Below, piece by piece: positions 2,416 through 9,283 of a DNA stretch of 43,008 bases. Each line of letters opens with the position of its first letter. Position 1 is the first letter of the stretch. A program made the translations under genes and the position numbers. Below the pieces are notes generated by a model that was given only the letters and a program-made list of their open reading frames with translations, searched no databases and was not told the origin of the DNA. Location: positions 1-43,008 of the forward strand of contig JAJDUK010000018.1 in assembly GCA_022826665.1 (NCBI GenBank), in the 5' to 3' direction. The stretch comes from Alphaproteobacteria bacterium (GTDB lineage Bacteria > Pseudomonadota > Alphaproteobacteria > UBA828).

Positions 2416-3291
2416 ATGGCATCCGAGGACGAGACACGCCCTGGGGCCAACTCGAGCAACGACGGCTTTGATGGCCGCGACCTTCTTGTGGGCCGGCCGG
2501 AAGGAGAGACAGTCGGCAAGCCTGCCACCAAGGCCAAGCGATCGCCGCGGTCGCCGCCATCACCACAGCCCAACGCACACGACGATGCTATCGCGGAGAT
2601 TCTCGCGACGGTGCGGGCCACCGCCGCACGCATCGACACGCTCCGGGACGAGACAGGACCGAAGCACGAAACGGCCGAGGCCCTTGCCCGCGAGACGGCC
2701 GCGCTGACCCAGGCGGTCACGAACGCGCGCGGCGCGCTCGCCAAGGCAGCAGATCTGGCTGCGCGCCGGGACGGAGCGGTGGAGACAGCGCGCGCCCTGG
2801 CCGGGGCCGCCGCCGCGCTAAAGACGCAGGGCGAGGTCCTGGACCAGCGTATCCACGCTACGGACCGGCAGTCGGCTGTGGCAGCCCACAGCTTGGAGGA
2901 CATGAACCAGTCGGCGACGGCGCTCGGTGATCAACTGCGCTCCCTCCGCAACGACTTGTCCCGCATTTCCGACAGACTGCGGTGGCGGTACTGGCGCTTC
3001 GGCCTTGCTGTGGCTGGCGCGGCGTTCGTCTTCTTCGCGCTGGGCCTGGTGCTTCAACGGGAGACCGATTTCGTGTCCTTCGGCGACCCGCGAGACGCGT
3101 GGAACGATTTTGTCGCCGAGCACTACGCGCCGTCGCTCGCAATATGCGCTTCGAAGGCCCGTCTGGACGAGAGAACCATCCGGTGCGGGCCGGATATCGC
3201 CCCCGCGCTGGATGTAACGGTCCCCTTCTATCCGGGAACCCTGACCAAGGTATCGTCCGAAGGGGAATTCGACGCCGAGGTGGAGCAGTAG
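2416..3291 (+). CDS. Membrane-anchored coiled-coil protein next to relaxase
   Basis: A 291-residue protein without signal peptide. The first 55 residues are polar and disordered (Pro/Arg/Lys-rich near 40-52). Residues about 57-187 are Ala/Glu/Arg heptad-like coiled coil. One transmembrane helix follows at about 194-214 (FGLAVAGAAFVFFALGLVL), then a C-terminal 75 residues with two cysteines. The ATG is preceded by GAGGGC. The stop is only 6 bases before the relaxase start, so the two are almost certainly co-transcribed. The layout (coiled coil, single helix, short tail) resembles proteins called DUF6118 found beside alphaproteobacterial MobF relaxases; that match is from memory and weak. It may tether the relaxosome to the inner membrane (inference). 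Confidence 0.7.
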   Translation: MASEDETRPGANSSNDGFDGRDLLVGRPEGETVGKPATKAKRSPRSPPSPQPNAHDDAIAEILATVRATAARIDTLRDETGPKHETAEALARETAALTQAVTNARGALAKAADLAARRDGAVETARALAGAAAALKTQGEVLDQRIHATDRQSAVAAHSLEDMNQSATALGDQLRSLRNDLSRISDRLRWRYWRFGLAVAGAAFVFFALGLVLQRETDFVSFGDPRDAWNDFVAEHYAPSLAICASKARLDERTIRCGPDIAPALDVTVPFYPGTLTKVSSEGEFDAEVEQ

Positions 3292-3297
3292 CCAACC

Positions 3298-6200
3298 ATG
3301 GTCGCGACCGTCACGCGCCTGAAGGCCGCCGCCACGACGGTGCACTACTTCGAGGCGGACGGCTACTACGCGAAGGGAGACCCGGAGCATCGCAAGGCGA
3401 GCGGATGGTACGGCGAGGCTGCGGCGTTGATGGGCCTGAAGGGGCCGGTGAAGCCGAAGCGCTTCGAGGAAATCCTGGCCGGATACGTGCCCGGCACCGA
3501 TCTTCGCCTCGGCCGCCTGCGCGACGGCGAGCACCAGCACAGGCCCGGCGTGGACGTGACCTTCTCGGCCCCGAAGTCCGTATCCCTGGAGGCGCTGGTC
3601 TACGCGGCGCCGAAGACGGGCGCGCGGGTGGTGAGGGCGCACGACGAAGCGGTGCGCGCCACTTTGGGCTTCATCGAGACCGAGCTCTTGCAGACCCGGA
3701 GCTACGACCCGGCGACCGGCCGCAGGCCGCGGGTAGAGGCCGGCGGCATGGCGGCTGCGACCTTCCGGCATCTCGCAAGCCGCAACCTCGACCCGCAGCT
3801 GCACACGCACGCCGTGATTGCGAACATGACGCGCGGCCGGAACGGGGAGTGGCGGAGCGCGGAGTTCACCGCAGTCGAGCGGTCGAAGCTTCTCATTGGC
3901 GCCTACTACCGGAACGAGCTGCGCATGGGGCTCGAAGAAATCGGCTATGCCACGGTGCCGACGTTGGTGGGCAGGATGCCGGGGTTCGAGATCGCGGGCT
4001 ACGGCAAGCCGATGCTGGACGCGTTCTCGACCCGCCGCCGCGAGTTGCTGGACTACATGCAGGAGCGAGGCTGGGAGAACACCCCCGCACGGACCCAGCA
4101 GGCGGCGCTTTACACACGGCGCCGCAAGGCCGAGCCCGACCGGCAGGTCCTGCGCGAGACCTGGGAGGCGCGGGCGCAGGAGCTTGGCCCGGAGCGTGAC
4201 CGCGACACGGCGCGCGGCCGCAACGGCGTCGAAGCGTCGGCGTTTCTACAGAGCGAGGCGCGAGCGGCTCCGTCGGCGCTGTCGGTGGTGCGGCAGGCCG
4301 TGGAGCACCTGGAGGAGCGGCGCACGGTATTCTCCGCCAACGACCTGCGCGCCTGGGCGCTGGCGCATGGGAGCGGGCGGCATTCCCTCGACGCGTTGGA
4401 CGCCGGTATCGCCCGGCTCCGTCGCGACGGGCACTTGATCGAAGCGACGGCGCGAAGGGCCGACCTGGCCTTCGTCACCGACCGCGCGCGCAACGCCGAG
4501 CGCGAGATCATCGCCGGCATGCGCGCCGGCCTGAACGCCGGGCACGGCCTGGCACCGGCAGACGCGGTCGAGGCCAGGCTGGACGCGGCCGGGCTGAACC
4601 CTGGCCAGCGCGATGCCGTGCGCGGAATCCTGCTGTCGCCTCATGTCACGGTGGGGGTGCAGGGCCATGCCGGCTCCGGCAAGACCACCATGCTGCGTGC
4701 TGTGGCGGAATTGGCCGGGCGGCAGATCGTCGGCCTGGCTCCCTCGGCCAGCGCCGCGCGCGTGCTCGAAGGCGAGGCCGACATCCCGGCGCGGACCCTG
4801 CAATGGTTCCTCACCCGCTACCGAGACGTGGGCGACGGCATCACCTCCCCTGAGAAGATGAAGGAAGCGCGCAAGGCGCTCGGCGGCTCGTTGCTGATCC
4901 TCGACGAAGCCTCCATGGTCGGCACGACCCAGATGCGTGCGTTGACGCGGATCGCGGCCGAGACCGGCGTGGAGAGGCTCGCGCTGATCGGCGACCGCCG
5001 GCAGTTGCGGGCCGTCGAGGCCGGCCAGCCCTTCGCCCTGTTGCAGGACGCGGGCATGCCCACCGCCAGGATGGACGAGGTGGTGCGCCAGCGCGATGGA
5101 GACTTGCGGCAGGCCGTGCTGCACATGGTGGCGGACGAGCCGCGCTTGGCGATCGAAGAGCTCGGCAACGGCGTCCTGGAGACCGACGGCGACGAGCTCG
5201 GCAGAAGGGCGGCGCAACTCTGGCTCGACCTCGATCCGGCCCTGCAGCCCGGAACGGCGATCCTCGCGCCCACGCACGAGATGCGGGCCGAGATCAACGC
5301 CGCCGTCCGCCACGGCCTCGAAAACGAAGGAGTGTTGCACGGCCCCGAGCTGGAGATCGAGCGCTACGTCAACCTCCACCTGACCCGCTCGCAGAAGGGC
5401 GATATCGCCAACTACCGCGAAGGCGATGTCGCCATATTCCATCACGACGTCTACGGCGTCCGTGCGAAGGCGGGCGATGCCTGCCGTGTGACGGAGGTGG
5501 GAGACGAGCGCGTCGTGCTCACCCTTCCCGGCGGCAAGGAGCGCAGTGTCGACCCCTCCGGCTATATCCGCTACCGCCTCGACCTCTTCGAGACCCGGCC
5601 GATGGTGCTAAAGGCAGGAGACCAAGTGCGCTGGACCCGCAACGATCCCGCGCGCGACCTGATCAACGGCGAGCGCGCGGAGATTCTGTCCATCCGACGG
5701 GTGAACGTCACGATACGCACCCAGGACGGCCGCGAAATCGTCATGGCGCGCGACGATCCTCAGCTTCACCATCTGGACCACGCATACTCGTCCACCGTGC
5801 ATGCTGCCCAGGGCATCACCTGCGACCGGGCCATCGCTGTCCTGGATACCGAGCGCGGGGGAGTCGCCGATCAGGCGACCTTCTACGTGGAGCTCACGCG
5901 CGCCCGCGACAACGTGGTGCTGCTCACCGACGACCGCGAGGCGCTGATCGAGGCGCTGGAGACCGCGCCTGCGGGGGAGATGTCGGCGCTGAAGGCCATC
6001 GGCGAGCAGTTCGAGGTCGCAACCTCGGTTTCAACCCCCGCCTCCGCCTCGGTCTCGCCCCACGTCTCGACCTTGGCCTCGGCCTCCGTCACCGCGGAGA
6101 CAGTTCCGCGGCACCCGCCTCCGGAGAGGGAGACGATCCTGGACGAGGCGACGAAGGAGAACCGCAAGGCTGCGGTGCGCTTCCTGGACCGGGTTCTGTC

Positions 6201-6528
6201 GGCAGCCTCAGCCTCGATCCGGCAGCGGGAGGAGCATGCAACCATTGCTGCCAGTGACCGCGCCCACGTCACCCAGGACTCCGGCTACGGCGAATGGCGC
6301 GACGGTGCCCAGCGTGCCCTCGAGGGCTGCCGCCGTATCCTCGACGATCCCGAGACCTTCGGCACGCATCTCGCGCGCCGTCCGGGCGCGGAGGACGACC
6401 TCAAGCGCATGTCCGCGCGGATCGAGTCGACCCTGGCGTCGGACAAGGCCGAGATCGAACGCCGCCGGCAGGAGCAGGAAGCCAGCAAGGCGATAGAGCG
6501 CGACATCGACATGGGCCTTGAGCTGTGA
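3298..6528 (+). CDS. MobF-family conjugative relaxase-helicase (TrwC/TraA-like)
   Basis: A 1076-residue bifunctional relaxase. The N-terminal 300 residues are the TrwC-type nicking domain. Tyrosines Y17, Y23 and Y24 lie where TrwC has Y18 and Y26, and the metal triad is H158, H169, H171, the same spacing as the TrwC triad. FSAPKSVS precedes it. The helicase half is RecD/TraI-like, with Walker A GHAGSGKTT (K462) and Walker B LDEAS (D536, E537). Residues 900-920 contain a duplicated VST-ASASV linker, followed by a charged helical tail. Length is close to TrwC and far below F TraI. It should cleave and covalently hold oriT DNA and unwind it. No coupling protein or mating-pair genes are in the window. 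Confidence 0.93.
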   Translation: MVATVTRLKAAATTVHYFEADGYYAKGDPEHRKASGWYGEAAALMGLKGPVKPKRFEEILAGYVPGTDLRLGRLRDGEHQHRPGVDVTFSAPKSVSLEALVYAAPKTGARVVRAHDEAVRATLGFIETELLQTRSYDPATGRRPRVEAGGMAAATFRHLASRNLDPQLHTHAVIANMTRGRNGEWRSAEFTAVERSKLLIGAYYRNELRMGLEEIGYATVPTLVGRMPGFEIAGYGKPMLDAFSTRRRELLDYMQERGWENTPARTQQAALYTRRRKAEPDRQVLRETWEARAQELGPERDRDTARGRNGVEASAFLQSEARAAPSALSVVRQAVEHLEERRTVFSANDLRAWALAHGSGRHSLDALDAGIARLRRDGHLIEATARRADLAFVTDRARNAEREIIAGMRAGLNAGHGLAPADAVEARLDAAGLNPGQRDAVRGILLSPHVTVGVQGHAGSGKTTMLRAVAELAGRQIVGLAPSASAARVLEGEADIPARTLQWFLTRYRDVGDGITSPEKMKEARKALGGSLLILDEASMVGTTQMRALTRIAAETGVERLALIGDRRQLRAVEAGQPFALLQDAGMPTARMDEVVRQRDGDLRQAVLHMVADEPRLAIEELGNGVLETDGDELGRRAAQLWLDLDPALQPGTAILAPTHEMRAEINAAVRHGLENEGVLHGPELEIERYVNLHLTRSQKGDIANYREGDVAIFHHDVYGVRAKAGDACRVTEVGDERVVLTLPGGKERSVDPSGYIRYRLDLFETRPMVLKAGDQVRWTRNDPARDLINGERAEILSIRRVNVTIRTQDGREIVMARDDPQLHHLDHAYSSTVHAAQGITCDRAIAVLDTERGGVADQATFYVELTRARDNVVLLTDDREALIEALETAPAGEMSALKAIGEQFEVATSVSTPASASVSPHVSTLASASVTAETVPRHPPPERETILDEATKENRKAAVRFLDRVLSAASASIRQREEHATIAASDRAHVTQDSGYGEWRDGAQRALEGCRRILDDPETFGTHLARRPGAEDDLKRMSARIESTLASDKAEIERRRQEQEASKAIERDIDMGLEL

Positions 6529-6577
6529 CTCGCCCCGCCGACCTTGTATTCAATCACCGCTGGCCCAAGCTATCGGC

Positions 6578-6598
6578 ACGGCGGCGGTCTCCCGCCGT
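6578..6598. terminator. Hairpin between convergent relaxase and RHH operon
   Basis: A perfect 7-base-pair inverted repeat ACGGCGG / CCGCCGT with a 7-base loop lies in the 91-base convergent interval. It has no T-run, so termination (possibly bidirectional) is only a guess. Confidence 0.3.
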
Positions 6599-6619
6599 CG
6601 GCGGCGGGGCGCCGCTCCA

Positions 6620-7066
6620 CTATTGCGAATCCGAACTTTCGACACTCGTGCGTGCGCGGAGCCGATCGACGGTTGCCGCCGCAAGCTGCTCGCCGAAGAG
6701 GTCCGCAAGAGTCGCCCCCAGCTCCCCCTCGCGGCCCTCGCGCATCATGGTCCGCATTGTCTCCTCGGCAAGGAAGGAGAGTGAATTGCGGATGTGTGTC
6801 AGCAACGCCTCATCCGTCTCTGCCTCCGCCGTGCGCTCCGCAATGGCGGTCACATGGCCGAGAAGGGCGCGCTGTTCGGCTTCGTCCAGCACGAGCCGGG
6901 GCGGCGGTTCAGGCTCCGTCGTCGGGTCCACGGTGAGCCCACACTCGATCATGTAGCGCGAGATGGAGAGCCCCTTCCGCTCGGCCAGAACCCTCACGCG
7001 TCCCCAATCGCTGTCGGTACAGGAGAGCGAGTACGCCTTCGGCAGGCGCCGGCCACGCCTCTTCAT
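6620..7066 (-). CDS. RHH-like mobilisation accessory protein, third of three paralogues
   Basis: A 148-residue protein. The N-terminal region carries a basic stretch (KRRGRRLPKAY), a W at about residue 21, and then an AERKGLSISRYMIECGL helix-turn-helix segment typical of MobC/TraY-like ribbon-helix-helix proteins. The remainder is acidic and helical, ending near a repeated DRLRARTS. The ATG at 7066 overlaps the stop of the preceding gene as ATGA, so translation is coupled. The two upstream genes share the same [G][LM]xxSR[FY][MI] signature, which marks internal duplication. Likely binds DNA near oriT or its own promoter; exact role is inferred from homology of layout and from the neighbouring MobF relaxase. 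Confidence 0.72.
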   Translation of the reverse strand: MKRRGRRLPKAYSLSCTDSDWGRVRVLAERKGLSISRYMIECGLTVDPTTEPEPPPRLVLDEAEQRALLGHVTAIAERTAEAETDEALLTHIRNSLSFLAEETMRTMMREGREGELGATLADLFGEQLAAATVDRLRARTSVESSDSQ

Positions 7067-7422
7067 GAACCGTCCCCGCTCTCGTCGTCGGACCCGGCAC
7101 GAGCCTCCCGAATCAGGAATGCAAGCGCGCCAAGTGCCGATATCTCCGTCCCCGGCAGACGCGACAGCAGCGCCTCGTTGCACCGGTCAAGAAGAGCAAC
7201 GCGCTCATACAGAATCCTCTGCTCATCCTCGGACAGGACCAGGCGAGGACCCTCGTCGTCGTCGGCCTCTGCACCGTGAAGCGCGCATAAGACCATGAAG
7301 CGCGAGAAACTCATCCCCGCCTCCTTGGCCCGCCGTCCGATCAATGCGCGGTTCCCCGGCGAGCAATAGATGCTGCGGATGCGCGCGATCTCCCGCTTCC
7401 CGCCTCCCTCGATTGCCGTCAC
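7063..7422 (-). CDS. RHH-like mobilisation accessory protein, second of three paralogues
   Basis: A 119-residue protein, GTG start at 7422 overlapping the previous stop as GTGA. An N-terminal strand region (RIRSIYCSPGNRALIG) is followed by the shared RAKEAGMSFSRFMV motif. Residues about 60-119 are acidic and helical (LVLSEDEQRILYERVALLDRC, then ALAFLIREARAG). The LVL.E.EQR segment is also found in the third protein (LVLDEAEQR), so similarity extends beyond the DNA-binding motif. Probably a dimeric RHH DNA-binding protein of the relaxosome or a repressor; not separable from sequence alone. Confidence 0.7.
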   Translation of the reverse strand: MTAIEGGGKREIARIRSIYCSPGNRALIGRRAKEAGMSFSRFMVLCALHGAEADDDEGPRLVLSEDEQRILYERVALLDRCNEALLSRLPGTEISALGALAFLIREARAGSDDESGDGS

Positions 7423-7745
7423 CCGAGTGCCTCCTCGGCATCGATCCGTGCACCGGCACGGCGCACCAGAGCCTGCCAGGTATCCGCCCCTGCGGAACCC
7501 TCGACGCGCTCTTTCTCGACCTCGTAGAGCACCCTGACCATGCGCTCGATTCGCGCCACTGCGACCGCGAGATCGCGCGTCAAGACCGGGTCCACCGGCA
7601 CCGCAACAGGCGCCGTCAGACGCTCAAGAATGAAGCGCGAGACGTCCATACCCGCAGCGTCGGCGCGCTCCTTGAGCGCCTGCCAGTCGCTGTCGGTTGC
7701 CATCACGGCGCGCTGCCGCTTGCGCCCCTCGGCTGCCCCGCTCAT
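7419..7745 (-). CDS. RHH-like mobilisation accessory protein, first of three paralogues
   Basis: A 108-residue protein that opens the three-gene operon. After a basic N-terminus (EGRKRQRAV) comes SDWQALKERADAAGMDVSRFI, the same helix-turn-helix segment as in the two downstream proteins. The C-terminal half is helical (LAVAVARIERMVRVLYEVEKE), a segment commonly seen in plasmid mobilisation MobC-like proteins. The ATG at 7745 has a GGCGGA-like sequence before it; in-frame upstream starts exist but would add an unlikely His/Thr-rich extension. The 507-base gap upstream contains its promoter and possibly oriT. Confidence 0.7.
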   Translation of the reverse strand: MSGAAEGRKRQRAVMATDSDWQALKERADAAGMDVSRFILERLTAPVAVPVDPVLTRDLAVAVARIERMVRVLYEVEKERVEGSAGADTWQALVRRAGARIDAEEALG

Positions 7746-8252
7746 GCCGTCCGCCCCATGGTTATGACTTCCTGTGTCGTGTCTGTGTCGCCATAAGGTG
7801 GACGATTTTTGCTGCGTATTACGCGCGCAATCCGCCAACGCCTCGCCTACCGGCTCTATAGTCATCTGAGACAATATTACATATGCGTTATGGAGTCCAA
7901 AATCAAGCGTAGAAAAGGCTTTGAGCGAGTGCAACCAGATTGCGTCTCCCGCATTCGTTTGAAATACGTCAAGTCCCCGAATGCAACTATTGAGCTATCG
8001 ATGATTCTGCCTTATGGACCCCAACCCCTCACGCGAATCCCGTTGACGAGCCGTCCAAGTGTCTGTAATATAGCCCGTATTGGAGGAGATCGCAACGCTG
8101 ATCAGATGTGCAACCGAGAGCTAATCCTGCTCATAGGTTGTCACACCCGACGAAGCTCGGACGCGGACTGATTTCCCTCGACTGCGACTGCGCTCATTCG
8201 TTCCCTCCTGCGATTGGCCGCCGGTATCGTACACTCACCCCTCGCGGAAGGC
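7746..8252. other. AT-richer gene-free gap, candidate oriT/promoter region
   Basis: No convincing gene in 507 bases; GC is visibly lower than in flanking genes around 7800-8120. An 11-base palindrome GCGTATTACGC lies at 7814-7824 (TGCGTATT overlaps it from 7813) and TCTATAG lies at 7855-7861. Both short strings also occur in the R388 nic region as I recall it, but there they are nearly contiguous and preceded by a hairpin; here they are 30 bases apart. The position beside the RHH operon and near the relaxase makes this the best place for an oriT, but no nic site can be assigned. Confidence 0.3.
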
Positions 8253-8834
8253 TCACGACGCCTTCGATCGCACCTGATCCGTGGACGCCTGCAGCTCGTC
8301 CACGCCAACCAGCTCCCGCAGTGTGATCGGGTTCGCGGGCGCCAGTGCACGCCGGAAGTGCCGAAGCTCCAACGCGGCGCTGAAGGCCGCCGTCACTTCA
8401 TCCTGGGAAATCGGCAATGACTCTCCCAGCTGATCCGCGCACCAACGCTCCACATCGGACCAGCGCCACAACCGATAGCGGCCGCGCGGGTCGGTGACCG
8501 GCTTCGGAAATCCGCCGGGCCCGCGAGCACCGCTTACCAACAATCGAACACTCTCTCGGGTTCGCCCGAGGCGGGCGGCGATATCCGCTAGCGAAGCGAG
8601 GCCGGCGTCGGCAATGCGTACGACCTCGACCCCCTCCAGCTTTTCCAGGTCGTCCACCGCCGACAAGATGGCACGGTCGAGTGTTTCGGCCTCACGATCG
8701 AAGTCGGCGAACTGGGTTCCATCGCTTCGACCGATGGCGGCATCGCCGCACCCGGCCTCGAACAACGCGTCGATGCGCGACTCATCTTGAAGGTCGGGCC
8801 CCTCGACGATCAGAGTGAAGTGAAACGTAGACAT
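8253..8834 (-). CDS. Winged-HTH DNA-binding partner of the HicA-like protein
   Basis: A 193-residue protein. The N-terminal 70 residues look like a small alpha/beta domain (FHFTLIVEG, then TQFADFDREAETLDRAILSAVDDLE), whose beta-hairpin plus helix recalls the HicB partial RNase-H fold. Residues about 75-140 are an excisionase/MerR-like winged helix (SLADIAARLGRTRESVRLLV, then GRYRLWRWSDVERW). The C-terminal 50 residues are unassigned. Its ATG lies one base after the stop of the upstream small gene (TGAGATG), with GGGAGAAGG inside that gene as ribosome site, so the two are translationally coupled. It is probably an autoregulator or antitoxin-like partner; I know the family as widespread but without described function. 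Confidence 0.7.
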   Translation of the reverse strand: MSTFHFTLIVEGPDLQDESRIDALFEAGCGDAAIGRSDGTQFADFDREAETLDRAILSAVDDLEKLEGVEVVRIADAGLASLADIAARLGRTRESVRLLVSGARGPGGFPKPVTDPRGRYRLWRWSDVERWCADQLGESLPISQDEVTAAFSAALELRHFRRALAPANPITLRELVGVDELQASTDQVRSKAS

Positions 8835-8835
8835 C

Positions 8836-9087
8836 TCAGCCTTCTCCCGTTCGCTGGGCCCATGTATGTGGACAGCGAGCGATGAACCGCCGCAATTGTT
8901 TGGCGTGGTTGCCGGCGTTTCGGGGCGTGGACCAGATTGATATCTGACAGCCGGAAGGACCCTCCACGCCGCATCTCATCACGCCCCAGCGATGTCCGGA
9001 TTGTGTCGGCGTCACGGTCCAACCGGCGCTTTCGGCATCGCGTAGGGCACTTTCGACCTCCTTCTTCGGATGCTTGGCCCGAGGCAT
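8836..9087 (-). CDS. HicA-like small protein (candidate toxin)
   Basis: An 83-residue protein starting MPRAKHPKKEVESAL. The order helix (KKEVESALRDAESAGW), strand, SGHRWGVM (H32), strand (CQISIWST), helix (NAGNHAKQLRRFIARC) follows the HicA layout: helix, GW, then G-S/G-H within beta strands, and a final helix. Three cysteines (C39, C47, C72) are unlike classical HicA. No strong ribosome site precedes the ATG. It is the first gene of a two-gene unit with the winged-HTH gene. HicA proteins are dsRBD-fold mRNA interferases; that this protein has such activity is inference from topology and pairing only. Confidence 0.65.
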   Translation of the reverse strand: MPRAKHPKKEVESALRDAESAGWTVTPTQSGHRWGVMRCGVEGPSGCQISIWSTPRNAGNHAKQLRRFIARCPHTWAQRTGEG

Positions 9088-9283
9088 GTTGACACGATAC
9101 AACAGCTGCGATGCGAGCGTCCACCGCTGCCGTCGAAATCGATCTCCACTCGAACCTTGACCGCGATGCTTCGATCGGACGAACTGCGGCCGGCGGCATG
9201 TGCGACACGGCGAACCGTCTGTTGAGACAGCGTCATGCGGAACTTGCGGTGACAGCGGCGCGACCCAGGACCACGGGAATAGG

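Follow-up and report, generated by a model that had tools for sequence, protein, structure and literature searches.

We analyzed a 43,008-nucleotide stretch from an Alphaproteobacteria bacterium (GenBank assembly GCA_022826665.1, contig JAJDUK010000018.1; hereafter the window) that carries two small adjacent genes, here called A and B. A comes first, and its stop codon is separated from the ATG of B by 1 bp. Both open reading frames (ORFs), with their sizes and spacing, lie where an earlier note, made from the sequence of this DNA, had placed them (Table 1). That note took them for an undescribed, diverged HicA/HicB-like toxin-antitoxin (TA) pair. The two genes are not chance ORFs: both match PADLOC profiles, and the same adjacent pair recurs in well over 100 loci from many phyla. 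As set out below, their conservation, coupling, predicted folds, and decay suggest that A and B probably form an autorepressed, type II–like TA module that combines a HicA-like toxin with a new kind of antitoxin.

Table 1. Features of the A/B locus and its surroundings, in window coordinates.
Feature	Position	Strand	Description
Gene A	8836-9087 (including stop)	minus	83 amino acids; HicA-like alpha-beta-beta-beta-alpha; predicted toxin; PDC-M06A match, E = 2.7e-24; conserved H6, K9, H32, T54, P55; putative metal ligands C39, C47, C72
Gene B	8253-8834	minus	193 amino acids; predicted antitoxin and autorepressor; residues 1-77 ferredoxin-like, 78-137 MerR/Xis-type winged helix, 145-192 helical; PDC-M06B match, E = 3.7e-21
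Predicted operator	9088-9103	minus	GTTGTATCGTGTCAAC; GTTG-N8-CAAC palindrome; abuts ATG of gene A
Possible promoter	9094-9123	minus	-35 TGGACG (9118-9123), 18 bp, -10 TATCGT (9094-9099, within operator); read by eye
Presence/absence cassette	8262-9280		Both genes and operator; absent from four congeners that have the same flanks
TrwC-type relaxase	3298-6528		1076 amino acids
NikA/MobA-like ORFs	7419-7934; 7063-7422; 6620-7183	opposite to relaxase	Three ORFs; last two overlap

Coupling and distribution of the two genes

Relatives were collected with searches seeded on A, which do not favor B. These scans returned 221 relatives from reference genomes, 80 of them retained, and a further 30 from viral contigs; the latter came from a scan with the alignment, while one with the single A protein found no relatives in those contigs. 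B offered no conserved stretch with which to seed an alignment scan of its own. The relatives of A are spread over Pseudomonadota, Acidobacteriota, Chloroflexota, Planctomycetota, Cyanobacteriota, Actinomycetota, Verrucomicrobiota, and other phyla.

B follows A on the same strand in 119 of the 122 A matches from these scans. Of the other matches, two overlap a B in a different frame, and the third is truncated by the end of its contig. The genes mostly overlap or lie less than ~30 bp apart, with a second group spaced by 50-90 bp. An even sample of 398 genomes from the window's phylum gave the same picture: A was present in 24, and all adjoin B except one weak partial match. Our final classification covered 157 loci, and 143 of these hold an intact A with the ferredoxin-like domain of B (131 with the winged helix and 12 without). 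That domain thus stands beside every scorable intact A gene (143/143). The strict coupling proposed earlier is borne out by this survey, and an obligate, closely spaced or overlapping gene pair is what characterizes type II TA systems.

Complete Escherichia coli genomes carry the pair in ~110 of 5,426 cases, always on plasmids, and many copies of the pair reside in SSU5-type phage-plasmids. The phage-plasmid pairs are direct homologs of the pair in the window, with A proteins ~45% identical.

Several loci depart from the standard layout. In two sphingomonad loci (L005:6246-8752 and L054:8245-10742), B is extended at its C terminus (219-221 amino acids) and a large ORF follows immediately; this is possibly a three-gene variant, the large ORF being annotated as an AAA ATPase in L005. 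At another locus (L011:4291-5481), B continues into a 397-amino-acid ORF with an unrelated C-terminal half, which is either a fusion or a missing stop. The gp53 and gp52 proteins of Gordonia phage Horus (L163:2476-2784 and 2857-3444) resemble a far-diverged A/B pair, encoded just downstream of the immunity repressor gene. The conserved A cysteines are missing from the A-like protein of Horus (GW...GHGFG...DGTPRG).

One-sided decay of A

A complete B lies beside a broken or lost A at eight loci (L058, L118, L158, L161, L167, L183, L186, and L219). The lesions in A comprise a frameshift (L158, Mycobacterium chimaera plasmids), three stops (L161, a Janthinobacterium plasmid), one stop each in L186 and L118 (the latter a viral contig), disruptions in L167 and L058, a deletion in L219, and a decayed remnant in L183. 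The reverse, an intact A without the ferredoxin-like domain, occurs in none of the 157 classified loci; the short partner of A in Mycobacterium phage Mao1 (L004) is too diverged for scoring, and one further locus (L066) is cut by a contig end. Furthermore, 24 of 26 matches to the SSU5 pair in E. coli plasmids span only B or part of B. Both of the B-only E. coli cases that were inspected have lost A; one (L162) has also lost the start of B, and the other (L219) keeps a complete B. This one-sided decay is the pattern expected if A were harmful without the ferredoxin-like domain.

A predicted palindromic operator tied to the winged helix

A 16-bp palindrome of the general form GTTG-N8-CAAC lies 5′ of A. 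It reads GTTGACA-N2-TGTCAAC in most pairs and GTTGTCA-N2-TGACAAC in Burkholderiales and their relatives. Among 111 distinct pairs with a winged helix, the palindrome is exact in 81 and has at most one mismatch in 100; it is present in none of 11 pairs without a winged helix (Fisher P = 5e-10, without correction for phylogeny). Random windows contain it at rates of 1.4% (exact) and ~6% (at most one mismatch). The losses of operator and winged helix are spread over unrelated groups, namely Planctomycetota, an Acidobacteriota-type group, and phage and viral contigs. We predict that the palindrome is an operator whose presence is tied to that of the winged helix.

The left half-site often includes TTGACA, a likely -35 box, and in the SSU5-type phage-plasmids the operator, mostly GTTGACA-N2-TGTCAAC, lies over this box. 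In the window, the possible promoter overlaps the operator at its -10 element (Table 1), an arrangement that would possibly yield a leaderless gene A transcript. The window site is the only one with two or fewer mismatches in the 4.6-Mb assembly. An exact GTTG-N8-CAAC is expected 0.27 times in the window, so a single site would be unremarkable, and the case for the operator rests on the comparison across pairs. HicAB modules are autorepressed through a palindromic operator, as described in PMC10865869 and PMC11594946.

Predicted structure and conserved residues of A

The alignments used for the structure models of A and B contain no rows from other collections. The AlphaFold2 model of A (56 sequences; predicted local distance difference test [pLDDT], 82) has the order alpha-beta-beta-beta-alpha, which is the canonical HicA order given in the fold description of PMC10865869. 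Its elements (helix 9-20, strands 24-27, 33-38, and 48-52, and helix 58-71) reproduce the order of helix, GW, strand, SGH, strands, and helix read earlier from the sequence.

Of the eleven best rows in a structural comparison with VIA-align, five were HicA chains (5yrz, Z 4.6; 4p78, 4.5; 6g26, 4.4; 6hpb, 4.2; and 1whz, 4.1), each match covering most of the HicA chain; 1whz is an entry that we take to be a HicA. Phage proteins named HicA-like appeared at ranks 4 (probability 1.00) and 12 in BFVD. In a profile-profile comparison (hhalign) of A with 30 HicA sequences, H32 was aligned with the HicA catalytic histidine, and the score of 21.9 was higher than that of any of 60 column-permuted controls (highest, 19.3). 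The HicA-like fold proposed for A is thus likely in light of its model. The likeness is one of fold, and membership in the HicA family finds no support from Pfam: none of 64 A proteins matches HicA_toxin (PF07927), and the window protein has no NCBIfam HicA match either.

Conservation across the 64 sequences highlights two groups of residues. One comprises H32 (63 sequences), T54 (63), and P55 (64). In the model, H32 stands just before strand 33-38, the second strand, and so occupies the position of the catalytic histidine in HicA; the histidines of HicA are needed for activity in the systems studied (PMC11594946). H6, P7, and K9 were part of the search seed, so that their invariance is partly built in, and relatives found without the seed keep H6 and K9. 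The other group comprises position 39 (Cys in 63, with one gap), position 72 (Cys in 63), and position 47, which is Cys in 57 or His in 7 and nothing else. This strict Cys/His exchange suggests that position 47 is a metal ligand, and positions 39, 47, and 72 likely form a metal site. Judging from the topology, we expect these three positions at one end of the sheet and H6, H32, and the STP loop at the opposite end. The cysteines had been remarked on in the earlier note; this conserved Cys/His set, together with the STP motif, distinguishes A from HicA.

Domain organization of B

The model of B (pLDDT 94) begins with a domain of the order beta-alpha-beta-beta-alpha-beta (residues 1-77; pLDDT 95-98), for which the structural matches are ferredoxin-like proteins (Z 5-6.4), and continues with a winged helix (78-137) and helices at the C terminus. 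The N-terminal domain had been thought HicB-like, a proposal that the model contradicts: HicB proteins start with a partial RNase H fold of the order beta-beta-beta-alpha-beta, according to their description in PMC10865869, and this fold is absent from the top structural rows for B. The proposed excisionase-type winged helix-turn-helix (HTH) was confirmed, with matches to terminase small subunits, Xis, BldC, and MerR proteins (Z 5.7-7.7). B thus shares its fold at 78-137 with excisionase-, AlpA-, and MerR-type regulators (Xis, Nu1, and BldC), but its winged helix is optional and is placed after a ferredoxin-like domain tied to A. A sequence search for relatives with a solved structure gave no credible match for A or B.

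Short B proteins contain a complete ferredoxin-like domain, end there, and stand beside an intact A. We considered these truncated proteins as possible evidence against coupling and rejected that reading, as they look like a natural form. Because they keep only the ferredoxin-like domain, this domain appears to be the part of B that A needs. Pairs without the winged helix parallel the class 1 hicAB modules without a DNA-binding domain that are described in PMC10865869.

Two short-B loci have further features. Immediately downstream of the short B of a planctomycete pair (L031), and in frame with it from ~8564, there is a sequence that resembles ordinary HicB by eye (GGYVADIPDL...GATPEEAL). Mycobacterium phage Mao1 (L004:3995-4527, gp40/gp39) carries A with a short partner that has no winged helix, and the operator is absent from this locus.

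Catalog status of the pair

The pair is already cataloged as PADLOC candidate PDC-M06, both profiles of which are matched by the adjacent genes in the window, and PDC-M06A is matched by all 56 aligned A proteins. PDC entries are putative, unvalidated defense candidates from a guilt-by-embedding screen (PMC12988326); the underlying preprint is cited in PMC12255303. Our literature search for PDC-M06 found no paper naming the pair, which has a catalog entry only as far as we found. Pfam and NCBIfam, searched with the two window proteins, contain no family for A and give nothing beyond weak HTH matches for B. In PHROGs, A corresponds to phrog_5923 (unknown) and B to phrog_2620 (“excisionase and transcriptional regulator”). 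The Salmonella phage SSU5 copies are annotated as a hypothetical protein (A) and an AlpA-like regulator (B), while the Escherichia phage Cyrano record labels its copies “HicA toxin protein” and “putative antitoxin HicB”; a HicAB identity had therefore already been guessed by an annotator. The pair is thus common and has no assigned function, as the earlier note stated, but it is not undescribed.

Relative to PDC-M06, which comprises the same two protein families, we add the folds, operator, domain logic, and decay pattern. What is new is the predicted operator tied to the winged helix, the one-sided decay of A, and the ~1-kb cassette; the pair itself was known. Our analysis also corrects the labels “hypothetical protein,” “AlpA/excisionase,” and “HicB,” all three of which are in use.

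A proposed toxin-antitoxin mechanism and its alternatives

We propose that this compact, horizontally moving two-gene module acts like a type II TA system. A would most likely be a toxin that cuts or binds RNA, with His32 at its active site and its fold stabilized by the putative Cys/His metal site; HicA toxins are characterized as ribosome-independent RNases with a bacteriostatic effect. The ferredoxin-like domain of B would keep A inactive, and the MerR/excisionase-type winged helix would dimerize on the GTTG-N8-CAAC palindrome. This site overlies either the -35 or the -10 region of the promoter, and binding of B there would repress transcription of the pair. Phage infection or other stress might then free A.

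More tentatively, and with somewhat less than even confidence, we suggest that PDC-M06 is a widespread new TA class, in which a metal-stabilized HicA-like RNase is paired with a ferredoxin-like neutralizer whose MerR-type winged helix reads GTTG-N8-CAAC, and which serves phage-plasmid addiction or superinfection exclusion. If so, the ferredoxin-like domain would be a toxin-binding fold that HicB does not use. Our findings suggest that HicA-like toxins may have a second type of antitoxin fold. With the predicted operator, the modular partner, and the one-sided decay, a catalog entry that lacked a mechanism becomes a testable TA hypothesis with an operator sequence.

Several observations weigh against a HicA-like TA module. 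A Foldseek search of the A model against PDB gave no significant match. The structural likeness to HicA is modest (Z < 5) and tied with unrelated folds such as T7 gp1.2 and PafA, and the profile-profile signal is weak (24%). No nuclease annotation for A exists in Pfam, NCBIfam, or PHROG. Some of the broken A genes were found in draft assemblies, where the breaks could reflect sequencing errors. Finally, the sampled neighbors of the pair are mostly ordinary genes, with few defense genes.

The pair might instead be a regulatory switch of mobile elements, with B as an AlpA/excisionase-like repressor or directionality factor and A as its harmless modulator (an anti-repressor or RNA-binding cofactor). 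The structural closeness of the B winged helix to Xis, terminase small subunits, and MerR proteins would fit, as would the PHROG label of B, the many copies in SSU5-type phage-plasmids, and the loss of A where B remains. We nevertheless consider such a switch unlikely: the window's assembly contains the operator nowhere but at the promoter of the pair itself, the pair in this genus also exists as a chromosomal cassette that no integrase adjoins, and the winged helix can be lost with A and the ferredoxin-like domain kept, which a DNA-directed switch would not predict. It is also rather improbable that the pair is an anti-phage system of another kind, in which A, harmless to a host that is not infected, would serve as a sensor or as a phage-specific effector and B as a structural cofactor and autorepressor. 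Such a role would agree with the PDC-M06 listing from the guilt-by-embedding screen and the patchy cassette behavior, but PDC entries are unvalidated and few defense genes neighbor the sampled loci. Moreover, A is lost with B kept and never the reverse, as would be expected of a harmful A; a joint complex would decay either way.

That the pair is a canonical hicAB module with a diverged HicB is very improbable, even though the small gene comes first, A has the size of a HicA and a HicA-like fold, and one phage (Cyrano) is annotated accordingly. The gene pair resembles the HicAB type II systems of Gerdes classes 1, 3, and 4, where the second gene likewise occurs with or without a DNA-binding domain, as set out in PMC10865869. 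B does carry such a domain, but of the MerR/Xis winged-helix type and behind a ferredoxin-like domain, whereas HicB joins its partial RNase H fold to an HTH or ribbon-helix-helix domain. This difference in N-terminal topology, and the absence of Pfam HicA matches among the A proteins, argue against a diverged HicA/HicB. Furthermore, none of the 14 HicA contexts of Gerdes, as given in part of the results of PMC10865869, has such a partner, and the words winged, MerR, excisionase, and ferredoxin do not occur in the whole of that paper.

A chromosomal cassette and its surroundings

The autorepressed TA module that we favor behaves as a cassette in the window's genus. Four of eight congener genomes carry the pair. 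A chromosomal gene for a flavin adenine dinucleotide (FAD)–dependent protein lies to the right of the site in all eight and adjoins the pair where the pair is present. In the four pair-free congeners (G060, G062, G064, and G065), the same left flank follows within ~50-80 bp. The variable segment is ~1 kb long (~8262-9280) and consists of the two genes and their promoter. No integrase was found beside the pair in this genus or in the annotated parts of the window.

A relaxase neighborhood had been suggested as the home of an addiction module. On the left, synteny with the congeners extends no further than ~8142, a point that separates the pair from the relaxase block, and three congeners have the pair beside the same chromosomal FAD gene. 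The proximity is thus incidental, and the relaxase was ruled out as the home of the pair; because congener synteny ends at ~8142, the relaxase and NikA-like genes (3298-7934) look like a separate segment. We also rejected a defense-island context, as only scattered defense matches occur among 125 neighbors of the sampled loci. Elsewhere, the same genome contains at least two ordinary Pfam HicA genes (G000:C24:18568-18741, C98:4156-4302; L121, L122) and one weak match.
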